From: Pseudomonadota bacterium
Lineage (GTDB): Bacteria; Pseudomonadota; Gammaproteobacteria; Burkholderiales; Thiobacteraceae
Assembly: GCA_021812385.1 (NCBI GenBank)
Contig: JAKANO010000017.1
Location: 1 to 64,000 of the forward strand
Length of the DNA: 64,000 nucleotides
Direction: 5' to 3'
Shown here in pieces: positions 16,201 through 19,856 of this stretch. The notes beneath the pieces are model-generated. The model saw only the letters and a program-made list of their open reading frames with translations. It did not search any database and was not told the DNA's origin. The translations under genes were made by a program, and so were the position numbers. Position 1 is the first letter of the stretch, and the number at the start of each line of letters is the position of its first letter.

Positions 16201-16464
16201 ATGCGTAAAGTCATCCGTTTAGGCGACGACACCAGCCATGGCGGCAAAGTCGTCAGCGCAACCAGCCATGTCACCGTAGGCGGCAAACCCGTGGCGCGCT
16301 TGGGTGACAAATGCACCTGCCCCAAGCGCGGACACAATAACTGCGTGATCGTCGAAGGCGATGCCGCATGGACGATCGACGGTATTCCCGTGGCACTGGA
16401 AGGGCACAAGATTTCTTGCGGTGCGGTGCTGGTGTCTTCGGCGCCGAATAACGGACGCGAATGA
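16201..16464 (+). CDS. PAAR-domain spike tip protein
   Basis: 87 residues making a bare PAAR domain, which sharpens the VgrG tip. Motif GDDTSHGGKVVSATSHV at the start, repeated turn motifs, and Cys/His candidates for the zinc site (His12, Cys39-x-Cys41, His46, Cys49 region). No extension domain is attached, so it does not itself carry a toxin. It sits between the membrane protein gene and tssA. Confidence 0.92.
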   Translation: MRKVIRLGDDTSHGGKVVSATSHVTVGGKPVARLGDKCTCPKRGHNNCVIVEGDAAWTIDGIPVALEGHKISCGAVLVSSAPNNGRE

Positions 16465-16483
16465 AGTAGAGGAGAAGCGAAGC

Positions 16484-17587
16484 ATGACCAAACAACTCGT
16501 AGCCGAACTGCTCGAACCGATCCCGGGCGGCCATCCGGGTGGAACGGATCTGGCCTATTTCAAGGAATTCGATGCCATCCGCGAGGCGCGACGCGCCGAC
16601 GATCCAACCCTGGCGCAAGGCGCGTGGGTGACCGAGGTAAAAGCGGCGCAGTGGCCGCTGGTGCGCGAATTGTGCGAAGAAGCGTTGCGCAAGAAGAGCA
16701 AGGATTTTCAGATCGCCTGCTGGTATACCGAAGCGCTGACGCGGCTTGAAGGCTTTAGCGGCCTGGATACCGGGCTGAAACTACTGAATGGCCTGCTCAC
16801 GGATTTCTGGGAATTCGCTTATCCCGAACTCGATCCGACCGACTTGGAAGAGCGCATCAGCAAATTCGAGTGGCTGGATACGCAAATGCCGCATGTGTTG
16901 CGCAGCGTGCCTCTGACCAGTGCCAAATCCGGCGGCTATAGCTGGTTGCAGTGGGAGGAGTCGCGCTCGGTCGAAAATCTCGGCGCGCGCGATGCCCAGG
17001 CCAAGGAAGCGGCCTTGGCCGAGGGTAAGCTGGCGGCAGATACCTTCGATAAGGCCGCCGATGCTTCCGGCGGCAAATTTTATGAAAAATTACTGGCGCA
17101 ATTGATCGCCGTACAAAACACCCATGCCGAGCTGGAGACGCTGGTGGATCGGGCCTTTGGCGCCGATGCGCCCAGCCTGCGCAGCATGCGCGACGCCATA
17201 GCCGGTTGCGTCGATTTAGCCAATCGGCTGGCCGTTCGTACCGGTGCAAAAGCGCAGCCGGCCCCCGCAATAGCAAGGCCCATTACGCCTGTGATGGACA
17301 GCCCGGCAACAGACAGTATCGTTACGCAGCAAGAAAGACCCGCCATGAACGCACCCCAGTTTTCCGGCCCCATCCAATCGCGCAGCGAAGCGGTGAACCA
17401 ACTGCGCGAGATTTCCCGATTTTTCCGCGATACCGAGCCGCATAGCCCGGTGGCTCTGTTGGCCGACCGCGCCGCGCGCTGGGCCGAAATGCCGCTGGAA
17501 CAATGGCTGAGCACGGTCATCAAGGACGATGCCACGCTGGGGCAGTTGCGCGAATTGCTGGATTGGGATCGCGGTGGGGCGTCTTAG
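16484..17587 (+). CDS. tssA: TssA (ImpA-type) T6SS cap/assembly protein
   Basis: TssA primes and caps the growing sheath and tube. 367 residues: ImpA_N domain at the start (LLEPIPGGHPGGTDLAYFKEFDAI split over 9-34; LLTDFWEFAYPELDP near 104-118), a variable Ala/Pro linker (about 255-290), and a C-terminal domain with SRSEAVNQLREISRFFRDTEPHSPV-like sequence that is typical of short TssA. The longer in-frame start at 16361 overlaps PAAR heavily; the ATG at 16484 has GGAG 10 nt upstream and is preferred. Last T6SS gene of the rightward operon. Confidence 0.93.
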   Translation: MTKQLVAELLEPIPGGHPGGTDLAYFKEFDAIREARRADDPTLAQGAWVTEVKAAQWPLVRELCEEALRKKSKDFQIACWYTEALTRLEGFSGLDTGLKLLNGLLTDFWEFAYPELDPTDLEERISKFEWLDTQMPHVLRSVPLTSAKSGGYSWLQWEESRSVENLGARDAQAKEAALAEGKLAADTFDKAADASGGKFYEKLLAQLIAVQNTHAELETLVDRAFGADAPSLRSMRDAIAGCVDLANRLAVRTGAKAQPAPAIARPITPVMDSPATDSIVTQQERPAMNAPQFSGPIQSRSEAVNQLREISRFFRDTEPHSPVALLADRAARWAEMPLEQWLSTVIKDDATLGQLRELLDWDRGGAS

Positions 17588-17593
17588 ATTAGT

Positions 17594-17716
17594 TTGAACC
17601 GCCAAGAGCGCCAAGAAAACCTTTGAAATTTTGCCGATAGCAGTCAATTTTTTCCGCGCCTGGCGTTTTTTCGTTGCACCGATAAGGGTTTAACTTGGCG
17701 CTCTTGGCGTCTTGGC
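17594..17716. repeat. CCGCCAAG-type extragenic palindrome (copy A)
   Basis: Arms built from repeats of CGCCAAGA on the left and TCTTGGCG on the right, around about 70 nt of unrelated spacer. It fills much of the 210-nt tssA-dnaX gap and could act as a transcript end for the T6SS operon. Related copies lie at 26235, 27124, 29501 and 62677. Confidence 0.75.
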
Positions 17717-17797: not shown

Positions 17798-19429
17798 ATG
17801 AGTTATCAAGTTCTGGCCCGGAAATGGCGCCCCAAAACCTTTGCCGAATTGGTCGGGCAAGAGCACGTGGTTCGGGCGCTGTCCAATGCCATCGATCAGA
17901 ATCGCCTGCACCACGCCTATTTGCTCACCGGCACGCGCGGCGTAGGCAAGACCACCATCGGCCGCATCATCGCCAAGTGCCTGAATTGCGAGACCGGCTT
18001 GACCTCCCAGCCGTGCGGCGTGTGCGCCGCCTGCACCGAAATCGATCGCGGCCGTTTTGTCGACATGATCGAGCTCGACGCCGCTTCCAATACCGGCATC
18101 GACAATATGCGCGAAGTGCTGGACAACGCCCAGTACGCGCCTACCAGCGGCCGCTTCAAGGTCTACCTTATCGACGAAGTGCACATGCTGTCGAAGGCGG
18201 CGTTCAACTCCATGCTGAAGACCCTGGAAGAGCCGCCGCCGCATGTGAAATTCATCCTCGCCACCACCGATCCGCAGAAAATCCCGGTGACGGTGCTGTC
18301 GCGCTGCCTGCAATTCAATTTGAAGCAAATGTCGCAAGCTTCGATCGTCGGGCATTTGGAGCGCGTGTTAAAGGAAGAGGGCGTCAGTTTCGATACTGCC
18401 GGCCTGCGCCTGTTGGCGCGTGCGGCGCAAGGCTCGATGCGCGATGCGCTGAGCCTCACCGATCAAGCGATTGCCCACGGCGCAGGGCAGATTCAAGAAT
18501 CTGAAGTGCGCGCCATGCTCGGCGCGGTGGACCAAGGCTATTTATTCGAATTGCTGGATGCGCTGTCGCGCCAAGAGGGCGCGAATATTTTGGCCATTGC
18601 CGACCGCATGGCCGAGCGCAGCTTGTCCTTCGACGCCGCGCTGCAAGACCTGGGCGTGCTGCTGCACCAGATCGCCCTGGCGCAGACCGTACCCGAAGCG
18701 CTGAGCGACGATGTGCCGGAGAAAGCGCGCATCGAAGCTCTGGCCAAGGCCTTGGGCTTGGATGAAGTGCAGCTTTATTATCAGATCGCCTTGCATGGGC
18801 GCAAGGACTTGTATCTCGCGCCGGACGAATATGCTGGCTTTAGCATGACCTTGCTGCGCATGCTGTCGTTTCGGCCGGAAGCGCAGGCCTTGGCCGGCGT
18901 AGCGCCGATGGCGAGCGCGCAAAAAAAAACTAATATAGAAGCCGCTGCGCCCCGCGCCGTAGCGCCGGGAATAGGGCCAGCAGCGCCCGAAACAAGACCG
19001 GTAGCGTCTGAAAACAGGTCGGCAGCGCCTGCGCCAAGCGGCGAATTCAGCGGCGATTGGGTCAACCTCGTCAATCAACTCAAGCTCGGCGGCATGGCAA
19101 AAATGCTCGCCCAGCATTGCGAACTGGCCAAACAAGAAGGCGACCTGTTGGCGCTGACCCTGCCGCCGGAGCACAAACACCTCGCCGAGAAATCCTATCA
19201 AGACAAGCTCAAATCGTCGCTGAGCGAATATTTCGGCAAGCCGATGCGCGTCACGATCGAACTCGGCGCCACCACCGGCCCTACGCCGGTGCAAGTGCAG
19301 CAGAGCGAAAAGGCAGCGCAAGAAAAGCGCGCCATAGAATCCATAGAGCAAGATCCTTTTGTGCGCGACCTGGTGGAACAGTTCGACGCCAAAGTGATCG
19401 AATCCACCATTAAACCCTTACAGACCTAG
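17798..19429 (+). CDS. dnaX: DNA polymerase III subunit tau/gamma
   Basis: Clamp-loader ATPase. AAA+ domain with Walker A GTRGVGKT (45-52), four-Cys zinc module (Cys64, 73, 76, 79), Walker B LIDEVH near 126-131 and the SRC sensor near 168. Domains I-III run to about residue 370, then a low-complexity linker and a tau-type C-terminal region (about 405-543). An A9 tract at the domain III/linker border (codons 375-378) may yield the shorter gamma form; see the separate entry. Start codon supported by strong N-terminal conservation (MSYQVLARKWRP). Followed closely by ybaB and recR, the classical order. Confidence 0.97.
   Translation: MSYQVLARKWRPKTFAELVGQEHVVRALSNAIDQNRLHHAYLLTGTRGVGKTTIGRIIAKCLNCETGLTSQPCGVCAACTEIDRGRFVDMIELDAASNTGIDNMREVLDNAQYAPTSGRFKVYLIDEVHMLSKAAFNSMLKTLEEPPPHVKFILATTDPQKIPVTVLSRCLQFNLKQMSQASIVGHLERVLKEEGVSFDTAGLRLLARAAQGSMRDALSLTDQAIAHGAGQIQESEVRAMLGAVDQGYLFELLDALSRQEGANILAIADRMAERSLSFDAALQDLGVLLHQIALAQTVPEALSDDVPEKARIEALAKALGLDEVQLYYQIALHGRKDLYLAPDEYAGFSMTLLRMLSFRPEAQALAGVAPMASAQKKTNIEAAAPRAVAPGIGPAAPETRPVASENRSAAPAPSGEFSGDWVNLVNQLKLGGMAKMLAQHCELAKQEGDLLALTLPPEHKHLAEKSYQDKLKSSLSEYFGKPMRVTIELGATTGPTPVQVQQSEKAAQEKRAIESIEQDPFVRDLVEQFDAKVIESTIKPLQT
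18921..18929 (+). other. A9 slippage tract in dnaX (probable gamma-producing site)
   Basis: Nine consecutive A residues in frame CAA AAA AAA ACT. One extra A (or a -1 ribosomal shift) gives AAC then TAA; one A fewer gives CTA ATA TAG. So slippage in either direction ends the protein within two codons of the tract, at 378-379 residues, right after the clamp-loader domains. Thermus thermophilus makes gamma by transcriptional slippage on an A9 tract in dnaX, and E. coli by ribosomal frameshifting on an A-rich site. Confidence 0.7.
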
Positions 19430-19777: not shown

Positions 19778-19844
19778 CCCAGAGACACAGAAACATTGAG
19801 ACACAGAGATTTTCTGGTTTTCTCGGTGACGCTGTGTCTCTGTG
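19778..19844. repeat. GAGACACAG-type extragenic palindrome
   Basis: Left part carries AGAGACACAG twice, right part CTGTGTCTCTGTG; the halves are complementary around a T-rich middle. It fills the ybaB-recR gap, so the two genes are separated by a hairpin although they belong to one classical operon. A second palindrome family, different from the CCGCCAAG type. Confidence 0.65.
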
Positions 19845-19856
19845 CTTAGCTAACGA

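Follow-up and report, generated by a model that had tools for sequence, protein, structure and literature searches.

The dnaX linker and its A9 tract

The window, the whole 64-kb stretch of DNA that was analysed, carries a dnaX gene encoding the tau subunit of DNA polymerase III (Table 1). The gene product matches TIGR02397 with 442 bits, and Pfam places the end of domain III at residue 358 and domain V at residues 420-538. Type VI secretion genes are located directly upstream of dnaX (16201-17587), with a PAAR protein at 16201-16464 and a TssA/ImpA_N protein ORF at 16361-17587. The intergenic region before dnaX harbors a perfect 16-nt inverted repeat (CGCCAAGAGCGCCAAG / CTTGGCGCTCTTGGCG, 17600-17709), of which the arms are 78 nt apart. 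An imperfect inverted repeat rich in CAGAGACACAG is present between ybaB and recR (19780-19847). No tRNA genes were found within the 64-kb window.

The linker of DnaX contains a run of nine A residues, 17 residues past the end of domain III and ~69% along the gene. With the C on its 5' side and CTAATATAG on its 3' side, C-A9-CTAATATAG spans 18920-18938. In the zero frame, CAA AAA AAA ACT corresponds to codons 375-378 of the 543-codon ORF. An earlier sequence-only reading had described this tract at 18921-18929 as lying in dnaX with stop codons waiting in both shifted frames, which was confirmed, with TAA one codon and TAG two codons on. The sizes that it gave, 543 residues for tau and about 378 for gamma, agree with the predicted 543 and 378-380 aa. 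The unslipped product is predicted to be tau of 543 aa. With one added A, the message would read AAC TAA and give a product of 378 aa with the tail ...AQKKN, and with one A lost, it would read CTA ATA TAG and give 379 aa with the tail ...AQKKLI. The predicted products for two and three added A's are 380 and 544 aa long.

Table 1. Features of the dnaX gene and of its A9 tract in the window.
Feature	Position	Strand	Basis
dnaX, DNA polymerase III tau (543 aa); gamma would be the first ~378 aa	17798..19429	+	ORF and profile matches
Hypervariable linker, from domain III (to residue 358) to domain V (from residue 420)	18872..19054	+	Pfam boundaries, divergence among congeners
GCG codon preceding the cassette (NCT, mostly GCT, in 81/88 cassette dnaX genes)	18917..18919	+	
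Conserved cassette CAA AAA AAA ACT AAT, identical in 5 congeners	18920..18934	+	
A9 slippage tract (putative)	18921..18929	+	Sequence
TAA stop, insertion frame (+1A; ribosomal -1), one codon past the tract	18931..18933	+	
TAG stop, +2A / -1A frame, two codons past the tract	18936..18938	+	
Domain V (alpha-binding), tau only	19055..19411	+	PF12170, residues 420-538

The dnaX tract is the single A9 in the window with both strands counted, where 1.19 A9 or T9 runs are expected by chance. The 3.29-Mb draft genome has eight A9 or T9 runs in all, the dnaX tract among these. The chance of an A9 falling within ~150 nt after domain III of dnaX is about 2e-4. Judged from such counts, a bare A9 in 64 kb is unremarkable; conservation is what marks the dnaX tract as significant, and the tract is judged real because it is conserved in relatives.

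Conservation and distribution of the tract

Ten genomes of the family were compared, the own genome included, and in seven of them the dnaX contig reaches the linker. Each of these seven, its linker being intact, keeps CAA AAA AAA ACT at codons ~375-390. An identical 15-mer, CAAAAAAAAACTAAT, is shared by the five genomes of the same genus, with a highly divergent linker on either side of it, and the two genomes of the sister genus have GCT CAA AAA AAA ACT GAA/GAC in dnaX. The sequence-only reading had proposed to check close relatives for the A tract and the flanking stops, and had counted a tract not kept there against itself; the tract (7/7) and the flanking stops proved to be conserved.

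A search of 300 genomes of the order located the 14-mer CAAAAAAAAACTRA within dnaX of the own family and of G147, a member of family f8 (Burkholderiaceae including Oxalobacteraceae, a name inferred from named loci). In f8, the 14-mer was present in 100 of 294 genomes, and it is situated inside dnaX in 17 genera. The insertion-frame stop always follows the cassette tract by one codon; most f8 sites were gathered with a pattern containing CA9CTRA, so that the core and this first stop are invariant there by sampling, which leaves the flanks and the second stop as the sole unbiased tests in those sites. The cassette (N)CT CAA AAA AAA ACT GA also occurs in dnaX of one distant gammaproteobacterium.

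In a tree of DnaX N-termini, the cassette label requires 16 changes and appears in at least four separated places. The own family (f1) forms one clade (support 98), far from f8, in which the cassette marks one subclade with nested losses. The further places are L028, with A10, and a distant gammaproteobacterial family. In a gammaproteobacterial sample of one genome per family (100 readable dnaX genes), a run of at least nine A's follows domain III in ten genes, and a run of at least nine T's in none of the 100. In eight of these ten, a stop comes within 11 codons in each of the shifted frames; GC-matched positions in dnaX genes lacking a run of this kind would give 2.3 (p 9e-5). One member of this set, L389 (G632), terminates in the zero frame at a TAA just past its A11, and its -1 frame is open for 209 codons. 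It belongs to the two-ORF dnaX type of Antonov et al. (PMC3711429), a less common arrangement whose tau depends on the shift. The two-ORF genes of that GeneTack cluster, with A7-A10, are likewise a case of A-run recoding of dnaX, but gamma is the zero-frame product there and tau is the zero-frame product here (PMC3711429).

These comparisons suggest a repeated origin of A-run slippage sites in the dnaX of Pseudomonadota, with about 10% of the sampled gammaproteobacterial families having one. In the open-licence literature on dnaX slippage in Burkholderia and on dnaX frameshifting in Oxalobacteraceae, no report of this site was found.

Shifted-frame stops and the probable origin of gamma

The strictly kept stop is the TAA or TGA of the insertion frame, one codon on, and the second stop is loosely placed, mostly 2-22 codons on. 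Among 80 f8 dnaX genes, the second-frame stop is reached after a median of 7 codons, versus 27 at control positions, and within 12 codons in 84%, versus 25% of the controls. The distance is below the codon-shuffled expectation in 18 of 20 genera (sign p 4e-4). It is 2-4 codons in 5/5 congeners, and 78 and 110 codons in the two genomes of the sister genus. Most second-frame stops are supplied by the rare valine codon GTA, which accounts for 50% of Val over the first 15 downstream codons versus 15% over the 50 upstream ones, an enrichment seen in 15 of 18 genera. The abundance of second-frame stops is what would be needed if +1A and +2A messages occurred side by side. As a ribosomal shift in one direction needs the -1 stop alone, the enrichment fits slippage instead, and selection on the stops of both frames thus provides a comparative test that tells slippage from ribosomal frameshifting. 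It appears from these data that such selection keeps the A-run sites of Pseudomonadota dnaX.

We therefore favor, with a probability of roughly 0.8, the view that the dnaX A9 is a programmed transcriptional slippage site of the Thermus type, giving both tau and gamma. RNA polymerase copying the tract would at times insert an extra A or several. Tau of 543 aa would come from messages with 9 or 9+3n A's, whereas the TAA one codon past the tract would end +1A messages (378 aa) and the TAG would end +2A (or -1A) messages (379-380 aa). The shortened products would be gamma, constituted of clamp-loader domains I-III without the polymerase-binding domain. The basis of this reading is the sequence, the domain limits, the conservation, the selection on both-frame stops and the lack of stimulators of the Escherichia coli type; from these we infer that slippage occurs, that RNA polymerase and not the ribosome is its agent, and what is said of the tau:gamma ratio.

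The mechanism proposed by the sequence-only reading is probably right, as conserved tract and stops, and a second-frame stop beyond chance, all point to tau and gamma being made by slippage. Its idea of slippage in either direction is better recast as the addition of one or two A's, as +2A explains the second frame better than -1A. Bacterial RNA polymerase mostly adds A's on A-runs, and the E. coli enzyme made no deletions on the A-runs tested, up to A8, from which +2A is the better reading (PMC6260861). The same enzyme slips little on A-runs up to A8, which counts against slippage; the reading requires that A9 be sufficiently slippery in this host (PMC6260861).

In Thermus dnaX, gamma results from slippage at A9 by the addition of one or more A's, and stops are near in both non-zero frames (PMC5009743, PMC1088944). 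The more robust design that the earlier reading saw in slippage either way is hence not new; the site exemplifies a mechanism that was already known. As in Thermus thermophilus, a run of at least nine A's follows the clamp-loader domains, tau is in the zero frame, and stops are near in both other frames; here these stops are also enriched across relatives, and a truncated gamma is predicted. Unlike in that bacterium of another phylum, whose tract comes after about seven-eighths of the gene (PMC1088944), the run here comes at about 69%, and a wider cassette is conserved (NCT-C-A9-CTGA in relatives).

The main alternative, in which the ribosome shifts to the -1 frame or slides on A_AAA_AAA in the manner of E. 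coli dnaX and gamma ends at the TAA or TGA one codon on, is considered unlikely. The heptamer is correctly framed and the -1 stop is conserved; E. coli dnaX itself uses A_AAA_AAG, and as A-runs can let ribosomes slide (PMC5009743), these may contribute a share. The resemblance extends to the same gene, a Lys-Lys slip region in the linker, a stop one codon on and, as predicted here, a gamma of domains I-III plus part of the linker. However, the E. coli-type frameshift was rejected for the lack of both an SD-like sequence and a stem. SD-like matches lie upstream in 6.8% of the sites versus 6.6% in the null, and the first 50 nt downstream, where a stable stem-loop was sought, have a mean folding energy of -9.0 versus about -15 in the flanks. 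The E. coli dnaX control in the same analysis shows both elements (AGGGAG, and a stem with -19.7). The in-frame heptamer A_AAA_AAG was not found at the site, A_AAA_AAA alone being present, and A6G, the more slippery form, never occurs in the cassette. While a ribosome needs seven A's, the tract is held at nine by CAA/GAA and ACT/AGT codons, and the selection on the other-frame stop, another difference from E. coli, is left unexplained by a ribosomal shift.

In the textbook view, E. coli ribosomal frameshifting is the Pseudomonadota route to gamma, and Thermus slippage is the exception. Three points appear to be new here: how widely and how often such putative slippage sites recur across Pseudomonadota, the extended cassette, and the comparative case that the second-frame stop is under selection. 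Unannotated gamma proteins are predicted in many genomes, and the cassette is present in cultured relatives, e.g., Noviherbaspirillum aridicola (L048).

The cassette surrounding the A-run

Comparison of 88 unique dnaX sites gives NCT CAA AAA AAA ACT GAN as the conserved island. The codon before the A-run is NCT in 81 of the 88 (72 GCT, 3 CCT, 3 ACT and 3 TCT), versus an upstream background of 8.6%; NCT was absent from the f8 search pattern and is hence independent of the collection there. The genus of the window departs from this rule, with GCG or ACG. Among 16 other dnaX sites with at least nine A's, six have NCT, with 1.4 expected (p 0.0014); one of these six, L271, came from a search with a GCT pattern and already figures among the 88. 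In the f8 loci (80 in number, e.g., L120-L147 and L210-L266), the amino acid encoded by an NCT before the A-run may be Ala, Pro, Thr or Ser.

It is highly improbable that the tract is kept for the peptide QKKT, or by recent common ancestry, with no role in recoding. Close relatives do share much sequence and Lys-rich linkers are common, but the surrounding linker is hypervariable and the tract recurs with both-frame stops in distant lineages. Peptide conservation was rejected, as codon choice and variants track the nucleotides. In about 80 betaproteobacterial dnaX genes, selected by protein and blind to the motif, QKKT is always coded CAA AAA AAA ACT where present, and the peptide is otherwise absent. 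Elsewhere in these genes, AAG, CAG and ACC are preferred (AAA is 40% of Lys, CAA 37% of Gln and ACT 10% of Thr), so the codon choice is skewed to the A-run, as it is to GTA. Within genera, variants differ in amino acids (Q to E, T to S or A), yet the A-run and the TGA stay: CAA AAA AAA AGT GAG, GAA AAA AAA ACT GAA/GAG and, with A8, GAA AAA AAA GCT GAA.

Slightly less credible still is an A9 that is a mutational hotspot, an assembly homopolymer artefact or a phase-variation tract: homopolymers are error-prone and chance alone would give about one A9 per window, but the length is identical across independent genomes and genera and the run is never out of frame, which already contradicts this, conservation led to the rejection of a chance tract, and on/off switching is implausible for dnaX, which is essential in known bacteria.

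Under transcriptional slippage, the conserved unit may be larger than the A-run. Tentatively, NCT-C-A9-CTGA, possibly together with a small nascent-RNA hairpin that ends at GCTC immediately ahead of the A's, could form a terminator-like cis element that raises RNA-polymerase slippage and sets it to a fixed tau:gamma ratio. Such an element would have evolved separately in several lineages of Pseudomonadota, and rare GTA codons would maintain the second-frame stop. The signal of an upstream hairpin is weak: the mean 3'-arm helix is 2.59 bp versus 1.61 +/- 0.40 at control positions, and the mean folding z of the region -30..+3 is -0.62.

A small hairpin ending at GCTC can be drawn in many of the f8 dnaX sites.
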